From Clostridia bacterium (GTDB taxonomy: Bacteria > Bacillota > Clostridia > Oscillospirales > CAG-272): a stretch of 45,418 bases of DNA. Positions 333 through 37,478 of the stretch are shown piece after piece. Below the pieces are notes generated by a model that saw nothing but the letters and a program-made list of their open reading frames with translations, was not told the DNA's origin and searched no databases. Within the stretch, counting starts at the first letter, position 1; the number at the start of each line of letters is the position of its first letter. Location of the stretch: positions 1 through 45,418 of the forward strand of contig JAFQWY010000278.1 of assembly GCA_017407225.1 (NCBI GenBank), in the 5' to 3' direction. Both the position numbers and the translations under genes were made by a program.

Positions 333-391
333 ATAAACAACAATTTTTGGCTACTCGCGCATACAAAAAATGTAATTTGGAGGAGAAATTT

Positions 392-3300
392 ATGAACAGC
401 AGAAAAAACAGATTCATCAGTGGTTTTCTGTCCTTTGCGATGGTTTTTACTCTGGTGATACAGGCATTGCCGCCGATTGAAGTTAGTGCGGCAGGCGGCG
501 GTATTACACTCAATGTTCCCTATGATAAATGGGAGGGGAATACCGGTTATATTGACATTGAAGTACTGAAACCAAATACATTTAGTATTCAATGGTCAAC
601 TTGTCCTGATGCCGAATGTTATAAACTTGCCATTCGCAATTTGGATACCGATGATCTTGTTGATGATTATGATAACATAATAATTGATAAGGATGAGTAT
701 CTCGTTACTACATCCAACGGAAAACAAAATTATAATTATACGTTAAATAGTAGTGCATTTGATTACTCTACCAGTTATAGAATCTATGTCGGTGCATATG
801 CTTCCGAAAGCGACTCATCGGCTATGGGTGATTACTGGAATACCGCTGAGTTTACAGTCTGTGATAAGTTATATATAGAACCAGCCGAAGATGAAATAAC
901 GGTAAACAGTGACAAACAATCCATTGATATAAGTGTTAATTCCAATATTACAACATGGTATATTAGTGAAGATGTTGATTGGATATACGTCGATCCTAAA
1001 AGTGGGAATTATGATGATGAATTCACAATAAATATATCAGCGAATTCAAGTACAACTAAAACACGTACAGCAGAAATTAAGTTATACTACGGAACTTACG
1101 TTGTTGAATATATTACTGTAAATCAAGAAGTTAAATCCACATTAACCCTATCGCCGGAAAGCCTCGATTTCGGTTACGAAGCTGGAGAAGAATTATGGCT
1201 ATATGTTACTGCCAATGAGGATTGGGAGATAACGGACTATCCTAGTTGGGTTTCCTGTTCGATAGATTCCTATTCAGTCTCAAGTGGAACTGTAAAAAAA
1301 GGAGTTCGTGTAACAACTACTTCTGATAATACAACAGGTCTAAAGAAAACAGGATATATAACAGTTGAAACAAATTCACGTGAGGAAGAAATAGAAGTAA
1401 CTCAAGAAAGTGATTCAATAGTTGAGATTATCACTCCTACTATTAGCTTAGATGTTCCAACAAAAATTACTCTCGGCGAAGCAATAACATGGTCAGGAAC
1501 AGTAGATGGTAACGGAGATACAATCGAGATTGTAACAGTCGGAATTCAATCTCCCAATACTGCTGTCATTTATTTCCGAAATCCTAACTTAAACCATACC
1601 ACTTATGACATATCTAATATCTATAATGGAACACTTCCAACCGGTACAGATATCATAAACTCTGATGGTACCGATGTTACTGGTTCTCAGAAACTAGAAC
1701 TAGATATGAGCGTTACTGGTGAATATTCTGTAACTGTATATGCCAAAACTACCAGCATGATTGAGAACGAGATAGAGCCGGTTATGTTAACAAAAAAAAT
1801 AGTTGTCACTAAACCTAACGATTCTATATCGATTAACCCGGATTGGAATAAAGTGACATCTCCCGCAACTGGCGGCATCGGAACGACTTTTACAGTAACG
1901 TCAAGTGGTGTATGGTATGTTGAAACCGATGTTAGTTGGATCAGTTTTAATAGAGAGTCCGGTGAGAGCGGCACTTCATTTACTCCTACTATCGCATCTA
2001 ATGCAAATGAATATCGCGAGGGGATTATAACTGTTACTTGCGGCGATGCGAGTATAGGGATTTGTGTTCAGCAGGAGGGAACTACTACAGAACCTGAAGA
2101 AGTTCCCTGTGTTACCTCGCTTTCTGTGAATCCGACAGAAGGAACATTAAATACCACATATACTTTCACCGCAAAGGCTGAAAATACAGATACTGTAGCG
2201 TTCTACGTCAGTGGATACAAAATTGGTGAAGTCACCAGCACAACTGGAACTTTCGAATGTACATACAACAAGTTTACCTCCGGTGGAGATCGCGTTATTT
2301 ATGCATACCCTTGCGATGAATATGGTAATGAGATCAAAACAGGCGGTAGTTACCTAACTGAAAAATTCACGATTACTGTTGACGGAACCCTTTCGCCGGT
2401 TAAGATTTCGACAGACTCCTATCAGACCATTGATGTAAATACTTCCTTTACTGTGGAATGGGCTGATACAGCCGCTGTTCCGAATGATGTCTCTTACAAT
2501 ATTTATGTATGGTATGACAATGAACAGGTCGCCGATATTATTAACACCAGTTCTCATAGTAAAACGATTCCTTCCTCTTATTTCACCAAAGAGGGACGAT
2601 ACATAATTGGTATATATGCGATCTCTGACACTTGGGCTGCAAGCAGCGGTGTATCTATCGTCGTTAATGCAACTGTTGATGTACCTTACATAGAAAATTT
2701 TGCGATTTCGCCTAATACAGTTTCTCTTGGAGGATCAGCAAAACTTTCCGGTATGGTTTATGGCAATGGCAGCGATATAGCGGAGATCATTATCAAGATT
2801 ACAAATAATTCTGATGGTACAGGTGGTGTTTATGAAACACTGTATCCTAATGGCTATAAACTGGATATGGCAGATACACCTGGTATTAACACATCAGATG
2901 CTATATTCACAACGCCGGGTACATATTCCGTAAAACTGTATGCTCTGAATGAAGGTGCTGTGAATGAAGTGCTGCTTGGACAGAAGACTTTACAGGTGGT
3001 TGCGGATTCAAAAATCACCTTAAATACTCCTGTATTGGGTGGAGCGTCTACAATATCCTACGGTGATGACTATACAGTCAGCTGGAACTATGATGGAAGT
3101 GTTGACTATTACTTGATCGGTATTTCCGGCTTGACCTACAGTAAAACGGTGGATGCATCGAACTCTTCCTATACAATTCCGTTTTCTGTGTTCAAACAGT
3201 ACCTTGGCTCTTCCGGCTCGAACTTTACAGTATATGTTACAGCTATGAGCAATAGTGATACATATCTGCCCAGTGCGAAGGAATCCAAGAATGTATATGT

Positions 3301-6300
3301 TTCCGGAAATGCTTCAGAAAAAGCAGTAATCAAGAGCGTTACTTTGCCTGGTCGGGATCATAATGAAGTGACTGCCGGTGAGACTGTTACTTTTGAGGTG
3401 GTTACCAGTACGGATGTAGAAGCTATCCGAATGAAAGATGGTGCAGGAACATTCATAGTCAACACATGGAATTCCGGATATACTGACTCTGGCAGTAATC
3501 GTACATGGACGGTTAAGCAGAAGGTTAGCTATGCCGGCAGCAGCGATGTTGATTATGTGAATCGTTCTCTGACGTTCTATTCCATGATTGGAAATACAGA
3601 GTACAACAAGTGCAATGTTACATTCATTTGTGTAAAGGATGCCGTAGTCGGTGCGTTTGACATTACCAAGCCGGTCAATGGTTCAGAGCAGCATCCTGAA
3701 AAGTCTCTGACTATTACATGGACAACACCTGATACCGGTGTGGATTACTATGTAGTTGATATTACTCATAATGGCGTTCGTATCGATGAAGATGTGTTCC
3801 CGTATGAAGTAAGAAATGGCAATAGTTATACATTGGACGGAAGCTATCTGATCCGTGACAACAATGCATGGAATGTTCAGGTGACCGGGTGCAAGGCAGG
3901 TATGGCGGATACAAGTGATTCTGTTCGTTTCGTCCTGAAATGTCAGCATGAAAAACTTGGTACGGCTGTGGAAAAGTATCTTTCCTATACCAATACCGGT
4001 TCGTCTTCTACGCATAGTGTTAAGACGGAGAAGACGTATCCCTGTTTGGAATGCGGTATGACTAATGCGAAGACAGAAACCGGAACCAAGGCTGTAAATC
4101 ATAATTACATTACGCTTGATGAGGGCGGAAAGGTTTGCAACCAGTGCTGGTATGTAAACAGCAACGGAAGTTATGATGTGCAGTATGATATGTCTCTTGT
4201 AACCACAAATTCCAACGGACGTGAAAATGTATATGCGAATGTTGGTGCGGACGGTAATCCTGTGAATGTTCAGAGCAACCGATATGTGGAAGTCGGAGAC
4301 AGTATAACTGTTTGGGGTGTGCTTGGAAATAGTTATTTGATTGAGTATCCTACAAGCAGTGGTACTCATAAGGGGTTTATCAAGAACACAAAAACATCAA
4401 AACCTACATACAATCCATCGCCTTCTGTGGATCTCAGTGGTCTGTGCTCAGAAGAAATAATTAATGCTGTTGATGCATTTTTTGATGTACACAAATGGAG
4501 TGAAGAAGACGAAGCTAACAATAAGTATGTTGGGGTAGGGGTGTTGTCACCTGAATATGCATTGGCACGAGACATATTGATGAATGAGACTCCTGATAAT
4601 AATTGGTTTGCTGCTTTTTTGACATATTTAGGAAAAGATCAGTTTGATAATGTTTGGTCGTTTGTTCAAGGAAACGAAGCTCTTGAAAAAGAAGAAATCA
4701 AAGCGGCTATCTATCTGGTATTGGAAAATGTAATATATGATGATGTGGATAATTTTGAAATGGCAGAGGCAGCTGAAACAATTGATGACATCGCTTCACA
4801 AGTTGGGGGTATTAAGGATACTATAAAAAGAGGAAAGCAGGCTTATGAGTTAACAACAGAAATAATTTATCAAACCAATCCTGAATTGGCAAATAAGTTT
4901 ACACAGTTGTATTTAGATATAATGAATACGGATAAGTATCCAACAAATGCACCAATCAGTAAGTTGATCTTAGATTTGCAAAACCAAAAAGCATTGGATG
5001 CAACGATAAAGTACTCGGTTCTTGCGCTGAAGATAATTGCAGATACGATGGAAATCGCATATATCAGGAATAGAACAAGCGTAGAAACGATTGCTTTGCT
5101 TAAGGAAGCTTTTGGAAATATTTCTACTGGTACAGCAGACGATTTGCGATATAAACAAATGTTACTTGATGTATTAGAAGAGATAGAGTTGGAACTTAAT
5201 AGTAATATATGGTCTACAGCTGTTTCAATAATGGATGTGTTAGGAGATCATATAGCAAAAAATACAATAAAAAATATTGCCAAAGAGACATTAAAAGCTG
5301 TTGGGAAGACGGCAGTCTTTTCAGCAGTAACTGTATATGATTTATTGAGAAGTGCTGTCTTATCATTTTCAGGTCTTGATGACTATATTAATGCTTGTAA
5401 TGAATCGTATGCTTTATTACCGATAGGAGGTGTAATTGACAGTTTATATCTGGATTACGTAATTAAATATAAACAACAAGGATTTACGGAAGAAGAGTAT
5501 TTCAAGTTTTACTGTTTACATAATATTGAACAGGGCGTACAAATATCATATAATGAAATAGCTATAAAAATGACCAACAGTTTGTATGCTCAAGAACAAT
5601 TACAAAAAGAAATTACTCACTTGGAAACCAATACACTGAAATATTGGCGTTATAATCCATATACAACAAATGGAATTGAACTGCCTGATTTTGAATGGAT
5701 ATATAACTCGACAAATACAATATTATATAAAAAACTGCTCACCAACTGGGTGGATGAAGATTCACTTGGACCAGAGATGTGGTATGATTGTAACGCAAAT
5801 GATAGATACATAGTCGCAAATGAAATTCAGAAATTGAAATCATTTTCCGAAGCAAGCATTGATAGAGTTTATGTAATAAGATCAAAGGTATTCGATACTG
5901 TCGACAGTATCTATGACGATTATTCGTTGCTCTTCCAAAATACAAATAAAGAAGGGCTTCTGGTCGAACTGTGCTGGCAAGATAATGCAGCGAATATGTA
6001 CTATTATATTACATATACTGTCCTCACTTCGGAAGAAGTAGAGGATATTATTGGTGAGAATGGAAACTATTCGAATAAAATTCCATCCAATAACATTAGA
6101 ATTTCAAATCTTCCAATTAGGCGATATAAGAATGAAATTAATTTTAATACAGATTGGTATATTGATTACTCATGCCTTGTGGGTAAAATAACAAAAACAG
6201 AATATGTTATCGAAAGTTTAATGATACCTATTGATTCTGATGATGTTAAAGTAATAGCTGATATTTGTATTGAAGAAGATTCTTGGATAACAAAAGATAA

Positions 6301-6436
6301 TTGGATGTGGAAAAGTATATGTAAAGCAATAGGTGAAATGTTTGACATAAGAATAACCGAATATGACCTGAAGTTGATACGTGAACGAATGAATTATGGT
6401 TTATACAAGAAGTATAAATGGCATGGGATTGTTTGA
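392..6436 (+). CDS. Giant secreted BACON/Ig-like multidomain protein (2014 aa)
   Basis: The start at 392 is chosen over an in-frame ATG at 347 because GGAGG lies 8 bases before it and a clear signal peptide follows (basic MNSRKNR, hydrophobic core, cut near residue 33 after VSA). Domains in order: about 160-247, 249-341 and 479-563 look like BACON domains (each ends with a V-x-Q-E/Q strand typical of the family), separated by and followed by Ig/FN3-like beta-sandwich modules to about 1180. A Cys pair CLEC (about 1218) and CNQC (about 1249) suggest a small zinc ribbon. An SH3-like stretch (about 1270-1333) follows, then some 650 residues of mostly helical sequence with no family I recognise. 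There is no LPXTG, dockerin or C-terminal membrane segment, so attachment to the cell is unclear. BACON and Ig-like modules usually bind glycans or act as spacers, so an extracellular adhesin or glycan-binding role is inferred. The gene is clearly more AT-rich than most of the window, most of all after about base 4440, hinting at modular acquisition. The dockerin gene follows 13 bases downstream in the same operon. Confidence 0.85.
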   Translation: MNSRKNRFISGFLSFAMVFTLVIQALPPIEVSAAGGGITLNVPYDKWEGNTGYIDIEVLKPNTFSIQWSTCPDAECYKLAIRNLDTDDLVDDYDNIIIDKDEYLVTTSNGKQNYNYTLNSSAFDYSTSYRIYVGAYASESDSSAMGDYWNTAEFTVCDKLYIEPAEDEITVNSDKQSIDISVNSNITTWYISEDVDWIYVDPKSGNYDDEFTINISANSSTTKTRTAEIKLYYGTYVVEYITVNQEVKSTLTLSPESLDFGYEAGEELWLYVTANEDWEITDYPSWVSCSIDSYSVSSGTVKKGVRVTTTSDNTTGLKKTGYITVETNSREEEIEVTQESDSIVEIITPTISLDVPTKITLGEAITWSGTVDGNGDTIEIVTVGIQSPNTAVIYFRNPNLNHTTYDISNIYNGTLPTGTDIINSDGTDVTGSQKLELDMSVTGEYSVTVYAKTTSMIENEIEPVMLTKKIVVTKPNDSISINPDWNKVTSPATGGIGTTFTVTSSGVWYVETDVSWISFNRESGESGTSFTPTIASNANEYREGIITVTCGDASIGICVQQEGTTTEPEEVPCVTSLSVNPTEGTLNTTYTFTAKAENTDTVAFYVSGYKIGEVTSTTGTFECTYNKFTSGGDRVIYAYPCDEYGNEIKTGGSYLTEKFTITVDGTLSPVKISTDSYQTIDVNTSFTVEWADTAAVPNDVSYNIYVWYDNEQVADIINTSSHSKTIPSSYFTKEGRYIIGIYAISDTWAASSGVSIVVNATVDVPYIENFAISPNTVSLGGSAKLSGMVYGNGSDIAEIIIKITNNSDGTGGVYETLYPNGYKLDMADTPGINTSDAIFTTPGTYSVKLYALNEGAVNEVLLGQKTLQVVADSKITLNTPVLGGASTISYGDDYTVSWNYDGSVDYYLIGISGLTYSKTVDASNSSYTIPFSVFKQYLGSSGSNFTVYVTAMSNSDTYLPSAKESKNVYVSGNASEKAVIKSVTLPGRDHNEVTAGETVTFEVVTSTDVEAIRMKDGAGTFIVNTWNSGYTDSGSNRTWTVKQKVSYAGSSDVDYVNRSLTFYSMIGNTEYNKCNVTFICVKDAVVGAFDITKPVNGSEQHPEKSLTITWTTPDTGVDYYVVDITHNGVRIDEDVFPYEVRNGNSYTLDGSYLIRDNNAWNVQVTGCKAGMADTSDSVRFVLKCQHEKLGTAVEKYLSYTNTGSSSTHSVKTEKTYPCLECGMTNAKTETGTKAVNHNYITLDEGGKVCNQCWYVNSNGSYDVQYDMSLVTTNSNGRENVYANVGADGNPVNVQSNRYVEVGDSITVWGVLGNSYLIEYPTSSGTHKGFIKNTKTSKPTYNPSPSVDLSGLCSEEIINAVDAFFDVHKWSEEDEANNKYVGVGVLSPEYALARDILMNETPDNNWFAAFLTYLGKDQFDNVWSFVQGNEALEKEEIKAAIYLVLENVIYDDVDNFEMAEAAETIDDIASQVGGIKDTIKRGKQAYELTTEIIYQTNPELANKFTQLYLDIMNTDKYPTNAPISKLILDLQNQKALDATIKYSVLALKIIADTMEIAYIRNRTSVETIALLKEAFGNISTGTADDLRYKQMLLDVLEEIELELNSNIWSTAVSIMDVLGDHIAKNTIKNIAKETLKAVGKTAVFSAVTVYDLLRSAVLSFSGLDDYINACNESYALLPIGGVIDSLYLDYVIKYKQQGFTEEEYFKFYCLHNIEQGVQISYNEIAIKMTNSLYAQEQLQKEITHLETNTLKYWRYNPYTTNGIELPDFEWIYNSTNTILYKKLLTNWVDEDSLGPEMWYDCNANDRYIVANEIQKLKSFSEASIDRVYVIRSKVFDTVDSIYDDYSLLFQNTNKEGLLVELCWQDNAANMYYYITYTVLTSEEVEDIIGENGNYSNKIPSNNIRISNLPIRRYKNEINFNTDWYIDYSCLVGKITKTEYVIESLMIPIDSDDVKVIADICIEEDSWITKDNWMWKSICKAIGEMFDIRITEYDLKLIRERMNYGLYKKYKWHGIV

Positions 6437-6449
6437 AAGGCGATAACTT

Positions 6450-9400
6450 ATGAATAGAAGAATACTGAGTTTATTACTTACATTATTGGTTACAATATCA
6501 ATCAAGCCATCTGTATACGCTGCATCGGAAGATGGCACATGGTATGACACCGCATTTACAATCACCGATTTCTACAATATCCCAGTTGTGAATTGTGATG
6601 GTGACGAAGGTCTTGTTTACAAGTTCACAGCTCCGGCAACTGCCACATATACGATTATTTCCATCAGTGATTATGATATTTTCGGCCAGCTCGAAGATTC
6701 AGATTGGGATCCAATTGTTTGGTATGGCAGCAGTTCCGATGAAGATGGGGACTTTGAACTGGTTGCGGATCTGACCAAAGGTAAGACATATTACCTTTGG
6801 ACGGATCCGGATGGAGTGGATGTAGCCAGCTACACCATGCAGATTTCCTATGAGATGAAATCCGGTTATTACACATACGATGTGTATACTAACAACTGTA
6901 TTGTTACCGCTTACAGCGGTTCCGAATCTTCGGTGGTCATTCCGTCCTCATTGGACGGAATGACCGTCACTGGAATTGACGGAGATGCTTTCTATCAGAA
7001 TACTACGCTCACTAGTTTAACTGTTCCGAAGACTGTAGAATCCATCGGTAGTGACTGCTTCTATGGTTGTACTTCTCTTAAAAATTTGGATCTTACTAAA
7101 GGACTGAAATCCATAGGTGCTGCGGCATTTGAAGGATGTACTTCTCTGACCTATCTTCATATTCCTCCAACAGTGGAGGAAATCCATACTTCTGCATTTG
7201 AAGATTGTTCCGGGCTCACGCAGATCGATCTTTGTGATGGCTTAGTGAGCATTAAGTCCAGCGCATTTGAAGGATGTTCTTCCGTGCCGGATATCACTCT
7301 TCCCAGCACTCTCAGGAACCTCGGTACTAATGCGTTCAGTAACTGTTCTTCTCTGAGCAGTATAGTAATTGCTGAAGGTCTTGAATTAGTTGATCGTTAT
7401 GCATTCAGCGGATGCAGTAAACTTACAGAAATAGTATTCCCTGAAAGTCTTCAAAAAATCAGAGCCTATGCTCTCAGAAATTGTTATGCTTTGACAGACG
7501 TAACTTTTTTGAATGCGGAGACAGTGTTTGATTCGGATGACGACATTTTTTATAACTGTTCTGATTTCACAATTAACGGTGCGAAAGGCTCTACAGCGCA
7601 GACATATGCAGAAACATATTCGATGTCGTTTGAAGCTTTCGCAGAACCTGATCCTGAACCTGAATTGAATGATCCTGGTTTTGAATCAGCGGAAGAACTT
7701 CATGTCAGCGGTGATATAATCGATCTGTCGTTGAATGGTTCCAGTAAATATTACACATTCTTCTTACAGGGAGATATGGATTTCAGTATGGAAATCATTG
7801 CAGGTTCTTCAAGTGCAATGAAATTAGAACTGTACGATGCAAATCATTCCCTTGTGGATGAAATAACTGCACCGGCTGGGAAAGCATTCAGTTCTGCTTG
7901 GTCGCCGTTATCTTGGGGTACATATTATATCAAGGTATATCCGAGCGGCAGCACTGCGGGAACAGCTCAGCTTTGTGTTATCTCAGATGCTATTGAGCCT
8001 ATTATGTACGATCCCGGCTTTACATCGGCAACACACATAACCGAAAGCGGGAAGGTATATTCATTTGATGGTTTATACGAATACATTTATTATTCGTTTG
8101 ATATAGCTGAGAATGACAATGTAAGTATAGATATCACAAATCATTCTATCGGGCATATCGAGTACGAATTATATCAAGGGCAAGATGATGTATTATTCAG
8201 ATATGATATGAGCGTTGACGGAAGCTTAGAGTATTCACCAGAGCTCCAGCCGGGCAGGTATTATATCAGAATATATACCCCGTGGAATCATGCATTCAGT
8301 GGTGAATTGAGCATCACATCGAATTCACTCGGAACTGATGATTCAACAGATACGGAAAATCAACCTGAATTTAAAGTTTATGAACCGATGTATGAATATG
8401 TTCGTCAATTTAATGGTGATTATGTTTCGGTGTATACTAATGGGGTATATTCGTTAGTGGATTCACAGAATAATAAACATTATTCATCCAATCAAGATGG
8501 TTTTGGTGATTATTCAGAAAATATTATTGCTACATATGATGCTCAAAAGAGCGAAATAACATTCAGTAATCTGGATGGCTATGCCTTTACACTTGTTGGA
8601 TATAAGTGGGCAGGTGAATTCTTAGGCGGTAAATGTGTAGTAGTAGATTCTGACGGGATGTATGGACTGATCGATACGGAAGGGAATTTCATTATAGAAT
8701 GCTTGTATGATGAGATTATTTATGACACTTCCGATACGGTTCTGTTGTGTTCCGATTCATCATGGACATCAGTAACATTGGGACAAAGCACATATTCTTT
8801 AAGATCGAGTTCAAGTGTTCCAGAACTATACAATCCGGTTCTATCTGTAACCGGCGAGCATATCATTGCATCTAATGGAACTGCATACGGAATACTGACA
8901 TCCGATAATATTCAAATCACAGATTTTCAATATGATCTTATACGAGATGCACAGAACGGTTTATTCGTAGGATATTATGGCGATTTGGTGGATTTGATTG
9001 AACTGGATGGAACAGTTACTGCTACTCTTACTGCATATTTTGTTGGAGGATATTCAGAAAACAAAATCGCAGTATTTAACGGTACAAAATTCTTCTATGT
9101 TGACAAAAATGGAACTACAATCGTTAATATGGAGGTTAAGGACATTATTTCCGCAGAAGCATTCCATGAATCATATGCTGTGATAAATGTTGATGGAAAA
9201 GGATATACATACATTGACACATCGGGCAATATAGCAGTTGATTCATACTGGGATTATGCGGCTCGTTTTGCAGAAGGCTATGCGTTAGTCATGAATTATT
9301 TCAATGACAACGATGGTAACAGCTTGAGAAAGTGGAGCATCATTGATACAGAATTCAATATAGTGATGACCTTAGAAGATGATTTATATATTGATTCGAC

Positions 9401-9713
9401 AGATGAACATTCTACAGACTTTTCAAATGGTTATGTTCGGACTATTGATCGTGATACAAACTTGATGGGATTTATTAGATTGGACACATCCAGACTTGAC
9501 AACGGTAGTAATCCGATCGGCGATATCAATGAGGACGGTCATGTTACTCAAGAAGACAGCATACTTCTTGCTCAATATTTTGCTGGATACAACATTGCTA
9601 TCTCAGAATCTATTGCTGATATAGACGCTGATGGTAACCTTACACGTAAGGATGCTATGATTCTTGCACGTCATCTTGCAGGCTGGAGTGAATACGATAA
9701 GTATTTTGAGTAA
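6450..9713 (+). CDS. Secreted LRR / PPC-like / WG-repeat-like protein with C-terminal dockerin (1087 aa)
   Basis: Signal peptide at residues 1-24 (cut after SVYA). A PPC-like beta domain (about 25-130) is followed by BspA-type leucine-rich repeats (about 137-397; repeating AFxGCSxLxxI and LPxxL units), then two more PPC-like domains that both begin DPGF (about 408-513 and 519-625). Next comes a long stretch of WG/KWG-like repeats (about 640-1015; for example DGMYGLIDTEGNFI). A type I dockerin ends the protein (about 1024-1087) with two calcium loops, DINEDGHVTQED and DIDADGNLTRKD, each followed by a LAQ/LAR-helix. Dockerins bind cohesins, so the protein is probably docked to a cohesin-bearing scaffold on the cell surface; no cohesin is encoded here. 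It starts 13 bases after the BACON gene with AAAGGCG as ribosome binding site, so the two are co-transcribed and probably act together outside the cell. AT-rich like its partner. Confidence 0.87.
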   Translation: MNRRILSLLLTLLVTISIKPSVYAASEDGTWYDTAFTITDFYNIPVVNCDGDEGLVYKFTAPATATYTIISISDYDIFGQLEDSDWDPIVWYGSSSDEDGDFELVADLTKGKTYYLWTDPDGVDVASYTMQISYEMKSGYYTYDVYTNNCIVTAYSGSESSVVIPSSLDGMTVTGIDGDAFYQNTTLTSLTVPKTVESIGSDCFYGCTSLKNLDLTKGLKSIGAAAFEGCTSLTYLHIPPTVEEIHTSAFEDCSGLTQIDLCDGLVSIKSSAFEGCSSVPDITLPSTLRNLGTNAFSNCSSLSSIVIAEGLELVDRYAFSGCSKLTEIVFPESLQKIRAYALRNCYALTDVTFLNAETVFDSDDDIFYNCSDFTINGAKGSTAQTYAETYSMSFEAFAEPDPEPELNDPGFESAEELHVSGDIIDLSLNGSSKYYTFFLQGDMDFSMEIIAGSSSAMKLELYDANHSLVDEITAPAGKAFSSAWSPLSWGTYYIKVYPSGSTAGTAQLCVISDAIEPIMYDPGFTSATHITESGKVYSFDGLYEYIYYSFDIAENDNVSIDITNHSIGHIEYELYQGQDDVLFRYDMSVDGSLEYSPELQPGRYYIRIYTPWNHAFSGELSITSNSLGTDDSTDTENQPEFKVYEPMYEYVRQFNGDYVSVYTNGVYSLVDSQNNKHYSSNQDGFGDYSENIIATYDAQKSEITFSNLDGYAFTLVGYKWAGEFLGGKCVVVDSDGMYGLIDTEGNFIIECLYDEIIYDTSDTVLLCSDSSWTSVTLGQSTYSLRSSSSVPELYNPVLSVTGEHIIASNGTAYGILTSDNIQITDFQYDLIRDAQNGLFVGYYGDLVDLIELDGTVTATLTAYFVGGYSENKIAVFNGTKFFYVDKNGTTIVNMEVKDIISAEAFHESYAVINVDGKGYTYIDTSGNIAVDSYWDYAARFAEGYALVMNYFNDNDGNSLRKWSIIDTEFNIVMTLEDDLYIDSTDEHSTDFSNGYVRTIDRDTNLMGFIRLDTSRLDNGSNPIGDINEDGHVTQEDSILLAQYFAGYNIAISESIADIDADGNLTRKDAMILARHLAGWSEYDKYFE

Positions 9714-11387: not shown

Positions 11388-14300
11388 ATGAGCAGCATAT
11401 TTATTTCCAGCACATTTCAGGATATGCAGCAGGAGCGGGACATACTGCAGAACTCCGTTTTGCCGCGAATAAAGGATCTTGCAAAGCAATACGGCAAAAA
11501 CATTGATTTATGCGATCTCAGATGGGGTATAAACTCAAGCGGAATGAGTGAGGAAGAAAGCACCGCAAAGGTACTGCAGGTCTGCTTTGACGAAATAGAT
11601 CATGCAAAACCGTTCTTTATTGCGATTCTGGGAGATCGTTACGGCTGGGTACCCAACGCCAAAGCCGCGGAGAATCTTACAATGGGCCGCAGCATCCAGA
11701 CGGGCGATCTGCTGGACAAGAGCGTTACCGAGATGGAAATCATATACGGAGCCCTGAAAAACGAAGATTCGGACGGCGTACGGTTCTATTTCCGTGAGAT
11801 CCGGAACAAACGAAAGGGTTTGTTCTCAAATCCGGATCTCCCCGGGTATTTTCTGAGCAGAACTTCCGATGACAGAAAACGGATGCGGGCTTTGAAAGAA
11901 AAGATTGAAAAACAGTTTCCCCGTCAAGTCCGTACATACTCGGTTATCTGGAACAATGACGCATCCAGGCTTGAAGGACTGGAGCAGTTTGCCGAAATGC
12001 TCTTCCGGGACATCAGAGATATGATTGTTCAGCGGTGGGGACCGGTGCCGGAGCCTTCCAAATACGAATATCAGCTTTATCAGTATCAATATGCAGTCAG
12101 CGGCGATGACTTTTTTGCGGATGAACCGGAGCCCTTATCATCGGACGGAACCCATCCCGACAACCTGGTTCTGAACGAAACAACCATGCGTACACAGAAT
12201 TATGTGCTGGTTTCGCAGGACGAACATAGTCTTGACATGCTGTTTTCATCCCTGTGCAGGAGATATGCCGCTTCGGAGTATACGGTAATCCCCTATGAGT
12301 GCAGTCAGTCCGTGCTGTCGTCTTCGACCGAAAACATGATCCGGTATTTCGTCGATATCCTGGCGCGGCACCGGAAAAACGGCGGGGAAAAGCCTGACGA
12401 TGCCGACAGAGGCAGCCTGAATGAAATCCCCGCAAAGTTCCATGCCGCTCTGGCCGCATTGGATGACGAGACGGAACGCCCGGTAATTTTGGCAATCCGG
12501 AACATTCAGTACCTGGACGGAGACAACGTGTTCGACTGGCTTCCCGTAACGAAGTTCAAACACATTCACTTTCTCCTGTCGTCGGATAAGGTACTTTCCG
12601 GACCATCCCAGTACAGAGAAAACACATCGGAGTTCTATTTCCAGGAAAACAGGATTTTCGGACGGGACCGCCTGATTAAAGCATATATGGCGCAGTATCA
12701 CAAAGAACCGGACGATGAGGTGTATTACGCCCTTATCGACAAGGCAGACAAAAAGGACGATCAGTATCTCGAACTCCTCATGCACAGACTGCTGGTTTTA
12801 ACCCGGGAGGACTATGAAGCAATCCGAAACAGCGGAGACGGCATGGAAAATATCTCCCTGTACCTTCGCAGGCTGATTGACCGATCCCCGGAGCATACAG
12901 CAGATTTTGTTCTGGAGCAGGTATCTCTTCTTGAGACCGAAACCGGTGCGGAATTCACAAAGGCGGTACTGTCCATTCTGTCAGTCCTCCCGTACGGGAT
13001 TTCCAGAAACGCCCTGAACGGTGTTTTGAACGCCGGCCATGTTCCGTTCAGTATGCTTGACATGACCCTTCTCTGCAGAAGACTTTCCGGTATTGTCAAT
13101 GTGACTCTGGACGGATATTACAGAATGATACAGACGCCGGCTGCGAAAATTATTTCCGACAGTCTGATCGGTGAAAGAGCGAAATGGAGCAGCCTGATCG
13201 AGAAATATATGTCAGCCGGAAGCAGCTCTGCGGCATCGGGCAATCCGGACAGCACTGCAGACGAACTTTACCGGTGCCAGTATCCGGAGGTGGCGTTGAG
13301 AACCCGGAAAACGACCGCGTTCAGTGAATATTTAAAGAATGTAAACTACGATGCTGCGATCGTTTCGCTGGTTCTCCGGCGTCTTGTGTCCAATCAAGCG
13401 CTGGAAAACGGGCTTGCCGCCAATTTCAGGAATCTGACATCAGCGGATATCAAATGGCTGATCACGGATTTCTATGAGTACCTTTCCGGCAGAAAACTCC
13501 TTCTCAACAAGGCTTTTGCGCTGAGACTCAGGGATCTGTGGGAAATACTGCTGTCATGCCTGCCGGAACCGGAAAAACCTTCCGAAGAAGAAAATCATAT
13601 CCGGTTCAGACTGCTCTATCAGCTGGGCGAGCTGTCGTATTTCCATGATGCCGATGATGCTGACAGATTCCTGACCGAAGCGAAGAGTGTCTCAAAGGCA
13701 AATTTCGCTCAGTACCCCAACAGAGTGTGGAAAATCGCTCACGGCATTGCATTGACCGATGAGGAAAAGCGCAGAGGATATGATGCCCTGGATATCCGTG
13801 AACCCATTGCAGACGATTCGTTTATCTTCGGATTCGACGGCGAAATAGAAGACATGGAGTTCGAGCAGTCCTGGAGCAGCATCGTCCGTATCATCAACAA
13901 TTACCTGTCGCATATCTATCGGAAACGCGGTGATATCCGGTCGGCGGAAAAACTGGAAGCGGAGTCCAAAAAGCTTACGCATATCTCCGACCCCGACCCT
14001 CAGCGCAGAGGAAACAGGGAAATCGTTCCGGGCATTACCGTTGTATGGCCCGATGATCCGGACGGCGGAAAGAGAACCGGAAAACGCCCATACAAACCGG
14101 ATCTGAGAAGAAATTCCGCAATTCAGATTGCCAGGGAAGCCCGCAGACTTCATGAGGAAGAAAAGTACGAAGAAGCCCTTGCGAAATATGCGGAATCAAA
14201 CGGGATTCTGAAAGAAATATACGAAGACGGCGAAACCGGCAGGTATTACGATCTGAAAGGCGTTGAAGACAATCCTGCCGAACTCGGGAAAAGGATTCAG

Positions 14301-16073
14301 AAGGAGTGTGCAAGAGACCTGGGGCTGAATTTCAATGATATGATTTTCTGCACTCAGTTCGGCGAAAGCGACGGGCAGCTGCGGATCTTCCTCGATGAAA
14401 TGATATCCTGGGGGCAGATCTATGATGACTACCGGAACAACAGACAGAGCAAATCGGATCTGGAACACTATTATCTGATTTCGGCGGAAGTGTACAGTAT
14501 CTTCGGCAGTGCCGCGTACTTTGACAGGATTGTGCGGGACATTGACCGGTATTTTACCTATCGTCTGGAAGCACACCTGAAAGGGGAACAGACCGATGAC
14601 ACAATCATCAGGGAGCGGGAAAGAGCCAACACAATTCTCTGTCAGGCGGTTATGCATAATCCCGGCAGCGGTCCGCAGATAACGGATCTTCTGCTGAGAC
14701 AAAGCAATGCTTCCGTAAAGGCAGACGATTTCAACGGTTTTCTGCAGCTGACATATCTTGCCGAAAATCTTCTCCGGTGGACATGGGAAAACAATCTTCA
14801 TTTCGTCGGAACGCACTGTTCCCTGGAATATATTTTCTTCAGCAACATCAGCAATCAATGTATGCTGTGGGAACAGCACCATATGGATGACCGCCTGAAG
14901 CAGGATGCCGACCGGATCGTCGGAATGCTGGGCAATGTCCGCGAATCCGGAAATGTTCTGTCGGGCGTGCAGAGTGTCATGCGTTATGCCATGCATATCT
15001 TCGGATCCGGAGACTACCGGGCCATTGTTCCGTATGCGGATGTTATGTTCGATACGGTGCGGAAAACGGATGATCTGCCGGATATTGAACTGGCAGGCAT
15101 ATACGAAAAACTGCTCGCCATATATTCGGAAGCCGAAGTGCTGGAAAAGGCGCATATCGCCGCAGGCTATAATGAAGCTTTATTGGAGAAAATGGAACAA
15201 AAAGGCTATCCCGATCAGCTGCGCCAGGCAAATATTACACCGCCGCAGTATAAAGCCTTCGTTATAACCAAAAAGATGATTGTGTACCTGAATCATGCCG
15301 TGGCGCTGTCCCGGATGGAAAAGCCGGATGACGCCGACGTCTGCCTGAGTATGGCAGAGGCGCTGGCGGCAGAGCATCCCGATATTGCCGGATCCGAATC
15401 CGGTATCATGCAGAGAATTTCGTTGTTCCGGAAAAACGGTTTGCCCGGCCCCAAACGCGGAGGGGATTCGGAAAAGGTATACCGCAGATATAAAGACGAG
15501 ATCGAAACAACTCTGAGCCGATGCCTCAGAAAAGAGCCGTACGATGCCGCCCTGCTTGAGCAGGTTGTTCAGCAGATAGAAAAAATGACGCGCATGCCGG
15601 AGCATGAAATCTACAGAAGCACCTATACCGTGGCCAAATATTATCATGTTCTGAATATGCTGTTTGCTGCAATCGGATGCAGGGACTCGGCATTTGAGAT
15701 GCTGCTGCGGGCTGCGGATCTTGCCGACAATGCCGACAAAAAGGAAGAGCTGTATGCGGAAATTTTCTCGGATCTGTGTGCGTACACCGATGATCCCGAA
15801 GCCAGACTGGAATTATCCCGGAAGGCACTGGCAATCTACGAGGATCTGCAGAAGCAGGGGAAGGAATGCTCGCTGAACTCCTATGCCATGCTGCTGTATA
15901 ATTCCGCTATTATTCTGATGGAGCAGGGGGACTGCACGAAAGCCATGGAATATGCCCGGAAAGCATCCTCTATCTGGGAAAGCATCCTGACATCGGATGA
16001 GGACGATCAGATCAAACTGTATTATTCCGAGGCGAAGAGACTGCTGGCTTTTTTGAAAACGAAAGCGGAATAA
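11388..16073 (+). CDS. DUF4062 protein with degenerate STAND-like core and TPR-like tail (1561 aa)
   Basis: Start supported by GGGAGG nine bases upstream. Residues 3-90 match the DUF4062 pattern (IFISSTFQDMQQERD, DLRWGI, FIAILGDRYGW) seen at the N-terminus of TEP1/NPHP3-like and bacterial STAND proteins. Residues about 265-600 lie where the STAND NTPase should be, but the P-loop position reads VLVSQDEHSLDMLF (273-286) in place of GxxGxGKS, and the Walker B position reads VILAIRNIQYLD (366-377) with no acidic pair after the strand. The fold may be kept without ATP hydrolysis. The rest is helical, with TPR-like hairpins around 905-940 and 1480-1555. There is no signal peptide or membrane segment, so it is cytoplasmic. 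Proteins of this architecture are often sensors in defence or signalling. It follows decayed genes and has no evident operon partner, so its role is open. Confidence 0.8.
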   Translation: MSSIFISSTFQDMQQERDILQNSVLPRIKDLAKQYGKNIDLCDLRWGINSSGMSEEESTAKVLQVCFDEIDHAKPFFIAILGDRYGWVPNAKAAENLTMGRSIQTGDLLDKSVTEMEIIYGALKNEDSDGVRFYFREIRNKRKGLFSNPDLPGYFLSRTSDDRKRMRALKEKIEKQFPRQVRTYSVIWNNDASRLEGLEQFAEMLFRDIRDMIVQRWGPVPEPSKYEYQLYQYQYAVSGDDFFADEPEPLSSDGTHPDNLVLNETTMRTQNYVLVSQDEHSLDMLFSSLCRRYAASEYTVIPYECSQSVLSSSTENMIRYFVDILARHRKNGGEKPDDADRGSLNEIPAKFHAALAALDDETERPVILAIRNIQYLDGDNVFDWLPVTKFKHIHFLLSSDKVLSGPSQYRENTSEFYFQENRIFGRDRLIKAYMAQYHKEPDDEVYYALIDKADKKDDQYLELLMHRLLVLTREDYEAIRNSGDGMENISLYLRRLIDRSPEHTADFVLEQVSLLETETGAEFTKAVLSILSVLPYGISRNALNGVLNAGHVPFSMLDMTLLCRRLSGIVNVTLDGYYRMIQTPAAKIISDSLIGERAKWSSLIEKYMSAGSSSAASGNPDSTADELYRCQYPEVALRTRKTTAFSEYLKNVNYDAAIVSLVLRRLVSNQALENGLAANFRNLTSADIKWLITDFYEYLSGRKLLLNKAFALRLRDLWEILLSCLPEPEKPSEEENHIRFRLLYQLGELSYFHDADDADRFLTEAKSVSKANFAQYPNRVWKIAHGIALTDEEKRRGYDALDIREPIADDSFIFGFDGEIEDMEFEQSWSSIVRIINNYLSHIYRKRGDIRSAEKLEAESKKLTHISDPDPQRRGNREIVPGITVVWPDDPDGGKRTGKRPYKPDLRRNSAIQIAREARRLHEEEKYEEALAKYAESNGILKEIYEDGETGRYYDLKGVEDNPAELGKRIQKECARDLGLNFNDMIFCTQFGESDGQLRIFLDEMISWGQIYDDYRNNRQSKSDLEHYYLISAEVYSIFGSAAYFDRIVRDIDRYFTYRLEAHLKGEQTDDTIIRERERANTILCQAVMHNPGSGPQITDLLLRQSNASVKADDFNGFLQLTYLAENLLRWTWENNLHFVGTHCSLEYIFFSNISNQCMLWEQHHMDDRLKQDADRIVGMLGNVRESGNVLSGVQSVMRYAMHIFGSGDYRAIVPYADVMFDTVRKTDDLPDIELAGIYEKLLAIYSEAEVLEKAHIAAGYNEALLEKMEQKGYPDQLRQANITPPQYKAFVITKKMIVYLNHAVALSRMEKPDDADVCLSMAEALAAEHPDIAGSESGIMQRISLFRKNGLPGPKRGGDSEKVYRRYKDEIETTLSRCLRKEPYDAALLEQVVQQIEKMTRMPEHEIYRSTYTVAKYYHVLNMLFAAIGCRDSAFEMLLRAADLADNADKKEELYAEIFSDLCAYTDDPEARLELSRKALAIYEDLQKQGKECSLNSYAMLLYNSAIILMEQGDCTKAMEYARKASSIWESILTSDEDDQIKLYYSEAKRLLAFLKTKAE

Positions 16074-34476: not shown

Positions 34477-34505
34477 TTGACAAAATATGCCACAGATGTT
34501 ATAAT
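34477..34505 (+). promoter_or_regulatory. Consensus promoter of first TIR-Sel1 gene
   Basis: TTGACA at 34477-34482, 17-bp spacer, TATAAT at 34500-34505. The promoter and the leader (AGGCAATACTGTCGAAAAAC and on) recur at 36141 with few changes. GAGGAG precedes the ATG at 34555. Confidence 0.92.
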
Positions 34506-34554
34506 ATAGGCAATACTGTCGAAAAACACGGATAAAACGAGGAGAAACACAGAA

Positions 34555-36012
34555 ATGTCTATGCTGGAACAGATTCTGCCCTGTAACCTGAACAAACCCT
34601 ACATCTTTATCAGCTACAGCTCCAAGGACCGCGAACGGGTTCTGGAGGATGTGCTGGAGTTTCAGCGCCGCGGCTACAATGTGTGGCTGGACGACCTGAA
34701 TCTTGATAAAACCAATCCTTCCTGGAAGGTGGATGCCCTGAAGGCGATCGAAAGCTACTACTGCCAGCTGGTCGTGTTCTATGTAAGCAGATGGTCCCTG
34801 ACCAGTGACAACTGCTACGAAGAGCTCTGCCATACCCGTCATGAGGATACGATTGCCTATCACAACGAGGAAGTGAAGTACATCGCCGTGGAGCTGGAAT
34901 CCATCGGGAACATCGTATCCTATAAAAACAGGGTTTTTGACGAACTGATGGAAGACGAAACGGTTTCCCTGAAAGAGCGTCAGGATCGCGCCAAGGTTCT
35001 GCACAATTTTATCCGGGATTTCTTCAACACCAACAATGAAAAGGTGCGTGTGCATCCCCGGGACGAAGCAAACCGGAAAATGGATTACTACACCGACGTG
35101 ACGGCCGCTTTCCCGGACAAAACAAGGATCCTTACAGGGATGCCAGCTGACCCGACCAAGAAACCTGTGAATACGGTCACTTCCGTTCCTGGAATCCAGA
35201 CTGAAACATATACAGAAAAAAGTTCTGTGGAAAAGTGGTATGCTGAAGCTCAAGGGTACTATGAGCTCGGAGAATACTCTCGCGCCATACAGATATGGAA
35301 AAGATTTGCCGAACAGGGAGTTGCACATGCCCAGTACAAGCTAGGTATGTGTTATCGTACGGGTCGCGGCATAAACAGAAATTCTAAAGAAGCGGCAAAG
35401 TGGTACCACAAAGCCGCAGAGCAGGGAGATGCGGGTGCACAGTATTATCTGGGCTTGTGTTACGATGAAGGCACCGGAGTACCACAGGATTACAACGAAG
35501 CGGTAAAATGGTACCACAAAGCTGCGGAACAGGGGCATGCGGATGCACAATTCAAGCTGGGCTGGTGTTACAGTGGTGGATACGGTGTGCTGCAGGATTA
35601 TTCGGAAGGAATAAAATGGTATCGCAAAGCCGCAGAGCAGGGGAATGTATATGCCCAGTATAGTCTGGGAGTATTTTATCATTACGGTAGGGACGTACCT
35701 CAGAATTACGATGAAGCAGTCAAATGGTACCGCAAAGCTGCAGAACAAGGTGATGCATCAGCCCAGTGTCATCTGGGATGGTGTTACGAAAAAGGATACA
35801 GAAACTACGATGAAGCGGTAAAGTGGTTCCTCAAAGCCGCAGAACAAGGAAATGCAGATGCCCAGTACAAAATGGGATGGTGTTGCCAAAAAGGCTATGG
35901 CGTACCGCAGGATTACGCTGAAGCTGTAATGTGGTACAAAAAAGCCGCAGAACAGGGAAACACAAGCGCAAAAAGCGCACTTACCCGCGAAGAACTCAAA
36001 CCCTACCTCTGA
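34555..36012 (+). CDS. TIR domain protein with Sel1 repeats, copy 1 (485 aa)
   Basis: Residues 14-165 are a TIR domain: strand and loop YIFISYSSKDRERV (16-29), YNVWLDD (41-47), and SDNCYEEL (84-91) whose C-x-x-E-L places the likely NADase glutamate at Glu90. A linker of about 60 residues (190-225) follows, then six Sel1-type repeats plus a half repeat (about 228-485; AEQGxAxAQYxLGxCYxxGxGV). TIR domains of this kind cleave NAD+ or make cyclic ADP-ribose signals; Sel1 repeats bind proteins or peptides. So this is probably a cytoplasmic sensor with a TIR output in one chain, in defence or stress signalling; this is inference. No separate effector (such as ThsA) is adjacent. The fifth Sel1 unit is four residues short. 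Confidence 0.88.
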   Translation: MSMLEQILPCNLNKPYIFISYSSKDRERVLEDVLEFQRRGYNVWLDDLNLDKTNPSWKVDALKAIESYYCQLVVFYVSRWSLTSDNCYEELCHTRHEDTIAYHNEEVKYIAVELESIGNIVSYKNRVFDELMEDETVSLKERQDRAKVLHNFIRDFFNTNNEKVRVHPRDEANRKMDYYTDVTAAFPDKTRILTGMPADPTKKPVNTVTSVPGIQTETYTEKSSVEKWYAEAQGYYELGEYSRAIQIWKRFAEQGVAHAQYKLGMCYRTGRGINRNSKEAAKWYHKAAEQGDAGAQYYLGLCYDEGTGVPQDYNEAVKWYHKAAEQGHADAQFKLGWCYSGGYGVLQDYSEGIKWYRKAAEQGNVYAQYSLGVFYHYGRDVPQNYDEAVKWYRKAAEQGDASAQCHLGWCYEKGYRNYDEAVKWFLKAAEQGNADAQYKMGWCCQKGYGVPQDYAEAVMWYKKAAEQGNTSAKSALTREELKPYL

Positions 36013-36019
36013 CCCCGCC

Positions 36020-36060
36020 GCCCGGACCGGCAGATCTGAACTGCTGATCCGGGCATTTTC
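36020..36060 (+). terminator. Terminator of first TIR-Sel1 gene
   Basis: GCCCGGACCGGCAG pairs with CTGCTGATCCGGGC, followed by ATTTTC. The stem is the same as that after the second copy, at 37438. The remaining bases to 36140 hold nothing recognisable. Confidence 0.82.
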
Positions 36061-36140
36061 GCTTTCTCCCCATCCTGCGGCGGAACAGGGCGCTTCCCGG
36101 AAAATATATTAACAGAATAAATCCGCTTTTGGATATATTG

Positions 36141-36169
36141 TTGACAAAACATACCGCAGATGTTATAAT
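36141..36169 (+). promoter_or_regulatory. Consensus promoter of second TIR-Sel1 gene
   Basis: TTGACA at 36141-36146, 17-bp spacer, TATAAT at 36164-36169; a duplicate of the promoter at 34477. The spacer differs from copy 1 at only a few bases. Confidence 0.92.
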
Positions 36170-36220
36170 ATAGGCAATACTGTCGAAAAACTACGGATGG
36201 AATGAGGAGAAACTTCAGAA

Positions 36221-37408
36221 ATGTCTATGCTGGAACAGATTCTGCCCTGTAACCTGAATAAACCCTACATTTTTATCAGCTACAGCTCCAAGGACCGCGA
36301 ACGGGTTCTGGAGGATGTACTGGAGTTTCAGCGCCGCGGCTACAATTTGTGGCTGGACGACCGCAATCTTGACAAGACCAATCCGTCCTGGAAAGTGGAT
36401 GCCCTGAAGGCAATCGAAAGTTACTACTGCAAACTGGTCGTGTTCTATGTAAGCAGATGGTCCCTGACCAGTGACAACTGCTACGAGGAGCTCTGCCATA
36501 CCCGATGCAAGAAAACGGTCGCGTATCACAACGAGGAAGTGAAGTACATCGCTGTGGAACTGGAATCCATCGGAAACATCACCACTTACAAAAACGACGT
36601 ATTTGACGAACTGATGGAAGACGAAACGGTTTCCCTGAAAGAGCGTCAGATGCGCGCCGAGGTTCTGTACGATTTTATCAATGATTTCTTCAACACCAAC
36701 AACGAGAAGGTGCGCGTGCATCCCCGGGACGAAGCAAACCGGATCATCGATTACTACACGGACGTGACGGCCGCTTTCCCGGACAAAACAAAGATCCGGA
36801 AGAGCACCCGGACGGCTGCACCCGAACCGAAAGTCCCCGTCCCCGCAGAACCCGTACCTCCCAAACCCGTGCCCGGTCAGACCGCGCCTCCGATTCCGGA
36901 AATCTTCGAGAAATACGATCCCAAACCGGAAGTTCCGCCGGAACAGTTATATGAAAAAGCACAGACTTATTATGACGCCAAGGACTATGAAGAAGCGGTA
37001 AAATGGTACCGGAAAGCCGCAGTTCTGGGGCATGTAAAAGCACAGAACAATCTGGGCTGGTGCTTCGAAAACGGCTACGGCACCGAAAAAGACTACACCG
37101 AAGCCGCAAAATGGTATCTCAGAGCCGCAGAGCAGGGGGATGCTTCGGCGCAGTGCAGTCTGGGCTGGTATTATCAATACGGCAAAGGCGTGTCCCAGGA
37201 TAACACCGAAGCGGTCAAGTGGTACCGGAAAGCCGCAGAGCAGGGGAATGCCTCGGCGCAGTGCAGTCTGGGCGAGTTCTACCAATACGGCAGCTGCGTT
37301 CCGAAGGATACCGACGAAGCGGTCAAGTGGTACCGGAAAGCCGCAGAACAGGGGAATGAAAGAGCCAAAAGAGCGCTTACCTTCCTTGAATTACAACCCT
37401 ACATCTGA
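36221..37408 (+). CDS. TIR domain protein with Sel1 repeats, copy 2 (395 aa)
   Basis: The first 191 residues match copy 1 with about 18 substitutions by my alignment and keep the TIR motifs, including Glu90. Changes cluster at 96-100 (RCKKTV for RHEDTI), 121-126 and 144-154, on the surface of the predicted domain. The linker is different, rich in proline (about 197-245, PxPxP patterns), and only three full Sel1 repeats plus a half repeat follow (about 250-395), against six in copy 1. The pattern, a conserved output domain with changing recognition repeats, fits paralogues tuned to different partners, though relaxed selection is also possible. It has its own promoter and terminator, so the two copies can be made independently. 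Confidence 0.88.
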   Translation: MSMLEQILPCNLNKPYIFISYSSKDRERVLEDVLEFQRRGYNLWLDDRNLDKTNPSWKVDALKAIESYYCKLVVFYVSRWSLTSDNCYEELCHTRCKKTVAYHNEEVKYIAVELESIGNITTYKNDVFDELMEDETVSLKERQMRAEVLYDFINDFFNTNNEKVRVHPRDEANRIIDYYTDVTAAFPDKTKIRKSTRTAAPEPKVPVPAEPVPPKPVPGQTAPPIPEIFEKYDPKPEVPPEQLYEKAQTYYDAKDYEEAVKWYRKAAVLGHVKAQNNLGWCFENGYGTEKDYTEAAKWYLRAAEQGDASAQCSLGWYYQYGKGVSQDNTEAVKWYRKAAEQGNASAQCSLGEFYQYGSCVPKDTDEAVKWYRKAAEQGNERAKRALTFLELQPYI

Positions 37409-37437
37409 TCCCTATTCCACAGAACCATACAGAAAAC

Positions 37438-37478
37438 GCCCGGACCGGCAGACCTGCTGCTGATCCGGGCAATTTTTT
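37438..37478. terminator. Terminator between second TIR-Sel1 gene and Met-gamma-lyase gene
   Basis: GCCCGGACCGGCAG (37438-37451) pairs with CTGCTGATCCGGGC (37457-37470), followed by TTTTTT. It also lies just past the stop of the convergent gene on the minus strand (stop at 37477) and has AAAA on its other side, so it may serve both. Confidence 0.85.

Follow-up and report, generated by a model that had tools for sequence, protein, structure and literature searches.

A tandem pair of genes on a contig of a Clostridia bacterium (Oscillospirales, CAG-272; contig JAFQWY010000278.1 of assembly GCA_017407225.1, analyzed over its full 45,418 nucleotides and called the window here) encodes two proteins, copy a and copy b, in which a nearly identical Toll/interleukin-1 receptor (TIR) head is joined to unlike tails of Sel1 repeats. 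Near-identical heads, tails of another history, and relatives' heads on other tails suggest, at the level of sequence, single-protein sensors built by tail exchange. The favored explanation, given a probability of about 0.5, is that each gene is complete in itself and would encode a single-chain, NAD-consuming sensor-effector, perhaps with an anti-phage role. The analysis establishes both genes, a TIR fold predicted with confidence, the residues of the active site, the mosaic structure of the pair, and the presence of the head on other tails elsewhere. The pair is real, unusual, and from a little-described group, and is a variant of the TIR sensor-effectors whose function is inferred here. Its parts are as follows.

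34477..34505, + strand: promoter of copy a, TTGACA-17-TATAAT, 12/12 consensus positions
34555..36012, + strand: gene of copy a, TIR-Sel1 protein P0001 of 485 amino acids (aa), from the open reading frame (ORF) and Pfam
34555..35130, + strand: extended TIR head of copy a, residues 1-192, predicted active site Asp46, Ser84, Glu90
35131..35220, + strand: linker of copy a, about residues 193-222, low model confidence, probably flexible
35221..36009, + strand: tail of copy a, TPR-like helices and then Sel1 repeats (six Pfam stretches; predicted run of helix pairs)
36020..36054, + strand: terminator hairpin of copy a, -24.6 kcal/mol, z -4.1
36141..36169, + strand: promoter of copy b, TTGACA-17-TATAAT, 12/12 consensus positions
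36221..37408, + strand: gene of copy b, TIR-Sel1 protein P0002 of 395 aa, from the ORF and Pfam
36221..36796, + strand: extended TIR head of copy b, 91% identity to the copy a head
36797..36937, + strand: proline-rich linker of copy b, about residues 193-239, from the sequence
36938..37405, + strand: tail of copy b, a TPR-like stretch and then three Sel1 repeats (Pfam)
37438..37470, + strand: terminator hairpin of copy b with a T run behind it, -25.1 kcal/mol, z -5.1

Both proteins match TIR_2 (39.7 bits for copy a and 38.5 for copy b; curated Pfam cut-off, 28), and the Sel1 profile exceeds its cut-off in six stretches of copy a (241 bits) and three of copy b (140 bits). The linker is proline rich in copy b and not in copy a, and the unlike tails described in the sequence-only reading of this locus were recovered. 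Neither protein contains a membrane-spanning stretch by hydropathy (top 19-residue mean, 0.98), and neither matched NB-ARC, STAND, or another NTPase family, or DUF4062, in Pfam at an E value of 0.001. The two complete transcription units of that reading, with their 12/12 promoters and terminators, were also found as ORFs, promoter sites, and hairpins; the copy a hairpin has just four T residues behind it, and a simple terminator scan listed neither hairpin on the + strand. Terminators and last codons match between the copies as well, indicating that a whole transcription unit was duplicated, with strong differences confined to the linker and repeats. With ≤3 mismatches allowed, a shared 31-nt segment of -10 box and leader was found in the genome at the two copies only. 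The perfect promoter was rejected as a hallmark of the cassette: seven such sites lie across the window, against 0.03 expected from 30 simulated first-order Markov windows, and one of them precedes the neighboring URO-D gene.

The heads are identical at 174/192 residues, the 18 differences agreeing with the approximate count made earlier, and differ at 55/576 nt. In bins of 40 alignment columns, identity between the -35 box and codon 192 is 85 to 100% in 13 of 17 bins and 73 to 78% in the remaining four; linker bins lie at ≤45%, alignable repeats reach 55 to 80%, and the terminators match again. The TIR codons hold 21 silent and 18 residue-changing differences, with nonsynonymous (dN) and synonymous (dS) distances of 0.061 and 0.283 by NG86 and 0.071 and 0.209 by YN00. 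For Sel1 repeats compared between the genes, NG86 dS was ≥0.88 or not computable (3/15) in all 15 equal-length pairs, from which a 33-residue repeat of copy a was excluded owing to its length; YN00 returned a dS for two of these pairs (0.621 and 1.117). At shared residues, codons are identical at 147/168 positions in the TIR versus 37/56 in the best-matching repeats (P = 0.00095). Furthermore, GC content at third codon positions (GC3) drops at the head-tail junction of copy a from 0.693 to 0.444 (P = 9e-8). GC3 is 0.70 to 0.77 in the nearby alr, URO-D, MGL, gidA, and thiF genes and 0.37 to 0.52 in the genome's six other TIR_2 genes.

Because silent sites are near saturation in the tails and not in the TIR, and because copy a GC3 falls sharply at the junction, the silent-site and composition evidence makes the genes mosaics whose heads and tails do not share a history, at least for copy a. 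A plain duplication followed by rapid adaptation of the tail was rejected, as repeat silent sites near saturation stand against a TIR dS of 0.2 to 0.3. Silent sites of the tails differ as strongly as the residues, so recombination or gene conversion is indicated rather than simple divergence under selection. The mosaic may have arisen by tail replacement or by gene conversion of the 5' half; no near relative carrying the genes was found. By the same sequence measures, the last two repeats of copy b (b2/b3; 81% nucleotide identity, dS 0.36) are a younger duplication inside that copy.

Neutral tandem duplicates with drifting repeat tails and no special role are an improbable account of these data. 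The pair occurs in only this genome of 25 in the genus, and repeat number shifts easily, as b2/b3 illustrate, both of which would suit such drift. Nevertheless, both frames are intact, the TIR dN/dS (about 0.2 by NG86; 0.34 by YN00) speaks for purifying selection, and one duplication followed by drift does not account for silent sites that are almost saturated in the tail when the head dS is 0.28.

Structure prediction gave a confident TIR model for copy a (predicted local distance difference test [pLDDT], 91.4), which aligns with TIR structures across residues 14-192, so the predicted fold is that of a TIR domain and the extra length of the head looks, in the model, like insertions within the domain. 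Asp46, Ser84, and Glu90 align with D33, S68, and E74 of Cat1, which mutants showed to be required for activity (PMC12162218). All three are invariant in 22/22 aligned rows (20 of 45 head-matching loci plus copies a and b), and Glu90, lying within C87-Y-E-E90-L, is supported as the putative active-site residue. The full-length model of copy a contains the head, a disordered linker (residues 195-223, pLDDT <50), and helix pairs; with a predicted template modeling score of 0.54, the relative placement of head and tail is not fixed by the model. The extended-head profile alone matched a single solved structure, weakly (8btn, E = 0.0017).

Conservation of the catalytic residues also bears on whether the TIR is a scaffold rather than an enzyme, its head contacts joining partners of the Sel1 tails into a complex that would signal in stress, envelope, or phosphosignaling pathways with no cleavage of NAD. 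This seems unlikely, although several observations would fit it: related TIRs are fused to parts that by eye resemble kinase, FHA, or membrane regions, one carries a PP2C-like part slightly below the Pfam cut-off, a vWA protein is encoded near the locus L092, and the TIRs of TLR and MyD88 score about equally well in profile and structure comparison. In addition, one screen found activity in only 28/152 gut TIR domains (PMC9092222). Asp46, Ser84, and Glu90, all kept in every aligned row, would be needless for scaffolding alone.

Relatives carry the head on other tails. None of the 24 other same-genus genomes contains the full-length head, and matches at an E value of 0.001 occur in 9/146 other relatives, none of them full length. 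With the source genome counted in each, 19 of 394 genomes matched in the order sample and 11 of 391 in the class sample, the only full-head match in these samples being that of genome G768 (30% identity). A scan of species genomes gave 45 loci, of which L089, L090, and L091 have a full head at 42 to 48% identity and L092, the G768 protein, at 30%; two of the three genomes of L089 to L091 hold one extra head each (L142 and L143). Five further extended heads are thus spread across three other genomes, two of which have two copies with unlike tails. The tail is MORN in L089, RidA/L-PSP in L142, and a BspA leucine-rich repeat (LRR) in L143 (the last two cut by the locus end), and no Pfam family matched the tails of L090 and L091. 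We know of no example of a TIR paired with RidA/L-PSP, as seen at positions 1489-2502 of L142, where an extended TIR head precedes PF01042 (E = 1e-14). At L090, a 478-aa protein (positions 2397-3833) with a RyR domain exactly at the cut-off is encoded near the extended-head TIR gene.

A tree separated the seven heads of four genomes, each of about 192 residues with a DYY motif and the stretch after it as its end, from three other TIRs as one group (support 97/98), with 98/99 for the window pair and 91/89 for the G831 pair; the order within the group is open, with long branches flagged among the three other TIRs. Paired heads are mutually nearest among the seven in the source genome (91%) and G831 (73%); the G833 heads are 51% alike, and L143 is nearer to copy a (55%). 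Tail likeness within pairs is limited to short stretches at most: 60 residues at 45% (L089/L142), 30 at 53% (L091/L143), and 133 at 59% (copies a and b). In the family of G833, 14 of 397 genomes matched at an E value of 1e-10 and G833 alone at full strength, in a scan that scored only eight candidates in some genomes. Among 54 TIR ORFs at 44 of the 45 loci, at least two Sel1 repeats were counted in seven and one in three more with a model built from the window's repeats. TIR genes lie ≤1 kb apart at 8/45 related loci, including L124, where they are overlapping frames. The same-genus genome G001 has a tandem TIR-Sel1-like pair (37% identity over 275 residues). At L054 (positions 4688-6049), L056, and L057, in other genomes, TIR heads are followed by long arrays that look MORN-like by eye.

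The earlier idea of varying Sel1 arrays on one head therefore stands in that a kept head with differing tails recurs elsewhere, and needs widening in that the tails are also MORN, RidA, and LRR. A fixed two-gene system, in turn, was not borne out: the full head is in 0/24 same-genus genomes, and no TIR lies beside MGL at 22 loci. Tentatively, the group may be a receptor family with a fixed extended TIR output and exchangeable tails (Sel1, MORN, BspA-LRR, RidA, and others), in which duplication and recombination at the linker would yield new receptors and charged changes in C-terminal helices would keep sister receptors from coassembling. Fifteen of the 18 TIR differences fall within residues 96-192 (P = 0.005, for a split picked after the data were seen), and many change charge. 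Five lie inside a 120° arc of the predicted helix 139-156, a weak signal with a hand-estimated chance of about 0.06.

The distribution of these differences is also relevant to a hetero-pair in which one copy binds the trigger and the other does the chemistry. The genes are adjacent, share promoter and leader, and have near-identical heads that could coassemble, and staphylococcal ThsB1 and ThsB2 split binding and cyclization in this manner (PMC12578639). Such a division of labor has only a small chance of being correct here, as each copy has a transcription unit and a hairpin of its own, the catalytic residues are present in both, the two copies in G831, and likewise in G833, are on different contigs (of draft genomes, leaving their distance open), and the differences concentrated in residues 96-192 would rather hold the copies apart.

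In the favored sensor-effector explanation, the Sel1 helix-pair tail would bind a trigger, for which a repetitive protein assembly (a phage structural protein, for example) is the most likely candidate, and this binding would cluster the TIR heads. Clustered heads could then build an NAD-cleaving site formed between two TIRs, and NAD+ would be drained or converted so that the cell stops or a signal is made. The pair would be a duplicate of one transcription unit whose 5' half, from promoter to TIR end, was kept the same or rehomogenized, while linker and repeats were replaced or retained an older divergence.

A closely related architecture is found at the locus L122 of Faecalitalea cylindroides, which combines TIR_2 and a long Sel1 array in one chain and keeps the Glu of C-x-x-E-L; unlike the pair, its Sel1 part is N-terminal (11 stretches) and its TIR is C-terminal and shorter (33% identity over 79 residues). 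The host genome has one TIR_2 match. DSM 3983 and ATCC 27803 are presumably one strain. On that presumed equivalence, L122 is taken as the TIR that was assayed. It is probably HMPREF0367_01592 of PMC9092222, in whose available text the sole TIR listed for E. cylindroides gave ADP-ribose and the assayed constructs are TIR domains of 120 to 143 aa without Sel1.

TIR-TPR proteins of Group 6 (PMC7075850) have an N-terminal TIR and C-terminal helical repeats, as here, but are mainly actinobacterial, longer than 700 aa, and built with TPR instead of Sel1; the solved TIR-TPR chain 9m0n (824 aa) gave a profile match (E = 6e-7). SpbK of Bacillus ICEBs1, likened by description only, is a single-chain TIR NADase whose other domain binds phage portal protein and clusters the TIRs, with the sensor in an N-terminal domain rather than a Sel1 tail. 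Thoeris ThsB proteins are likewise TIR sensor-enzymes, with two TIR genes in staphylococci, where ThsB1 binds a capsid protein and ThsB2 cyclizes (PMC12578639); the ThsB profile of PADLOC gave copy a an E value of 0.011 over 35/183 positions and copy b none at 0.1, and Pfam ThsB_TIR had no match at 0.001. TIR-NB-ARC-TPR (NLR-like) proteins and Avs5, whose tails can contain Sel1-like repeats (PMC12931631), have an effector head and a repeat tail as sensor but contain an NB-ARC or STAND module, where here a linker connects head and repeats. DUF4062, reported in a 2026 preprint (PMC13174449) as a TIR-like NADase family with the phage-protein-triggered anti-phage system Swarozyc, differs in its domain, which copies a and b lack. 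In SpbK, ThsB1/ThsB2, and Swarozyc, a phage structural protein turns on TIR or TIR-like NAD cleavage. No description of bacterial TIR-Sel1 fusions was found in the open-access literature searched, nor were TIR, Sel1 repeat, and NADase, or TIR, MORN, and Sel1, found together there.

Several observations weigh against the sensor-effector explanation and its phage trigger. Asn10, required in Cat1, aligns with Ser23, and the Cat1 mapping covers residues of one TIR, Lys121 and Tyr122 of Cat1 being given by the second; the proportion of active gut TIRs cited above counts here too, and the DSM 3983/ATCC 27803 equivalence behind L122 is a presumption. As to the mosaic, YN00 dS is just 0.62 for one repeat pair, and the GC3 drop in copy b (0.698 to 0.611) is not significant (P = 0.073). 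The neighborhood and phage records give no pointer to a phage trigger: no recognized defense gene adjoins the pair (Pfam, 26 other window ORFs, some overlapping), PADLOC on eight window ORFs gave nothing at an E value of 0.01, and no defense system was named among 20 of 32 neighbor ORFs scanned around L089 to L092, which are mainly metabolic, sensory, or unassigned. PADLOC matches on the TIR part are weak (best E = 0.007), and the top match overall, PtuA (1.7e-5), falls on the Sel1 part. The head matched no phage or plasmid record at an E value of 1e-5, and viral contigs gave one weak match (L088); a phage or plasmid origin was rejected on these results.

The defense-island context raised earlier was not seen in Pfam and PADLOC scans of the window ORFs, among which ThsA was also absent. 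A STALD search of the genome had no match, a result of little weight since the control was also found nowhere. The exception to the empty neighborhood is a gene 18 kb off, encoding a 1,561-aa protein with an N-terminal DUF4062 domain (window positions 11388-16073, + strand; E = 7e-12). Two large genes at 347-6436 and 6450-9713 (BACON domains; LRR_5, WG repeats, and dockerin) have a GC3 near 0.32, far under the rest of the window, and are perhaps acquired. The genome, at 92% completeness with 5.7% contamination, is a draft in 375 contigs. The contig most likely belongs to it, because its order of gidA before MGL recurs at 10 of the 22 loci compared in other same-genus genomes (at one, L175, gidA is on the other side). 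At these MGL loci (flanks ≤1.5 kb, some ended by the contig), neither a TIR nor a URO-D match nor the exact empty site was found. In all, the source genome has TIR_2 at eight places. Besides the pair described here, these include two TIR-Sel1 genes and, on contig C280, a TIR-NB-ARC gene next to another of its kind, each with TPR-like parts and an NLR-like layout (L044 positions 3917-6322 and 6332-8722). A 350-aa protein on contig C186 (L043, positions 4739-5791) has a C-terminal TIR and an N-terminal part that is macro-like by eye, with no such family matched.

If the sensor-effector explanation is correct, some Clostridia would make immune-type receptors by reusing an NAD-cleaving head and swapping the tail, without an NLR-like ATPase module. 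A gut-species TIR that has already been assayed is also probably linked to a Sel1 architecture, which is unremarked in the available part of PMC9092222. With 91% identity between its heads and tails that differ, the pair is a ready-made natural system for asking if the trigger is set by the tail alone.
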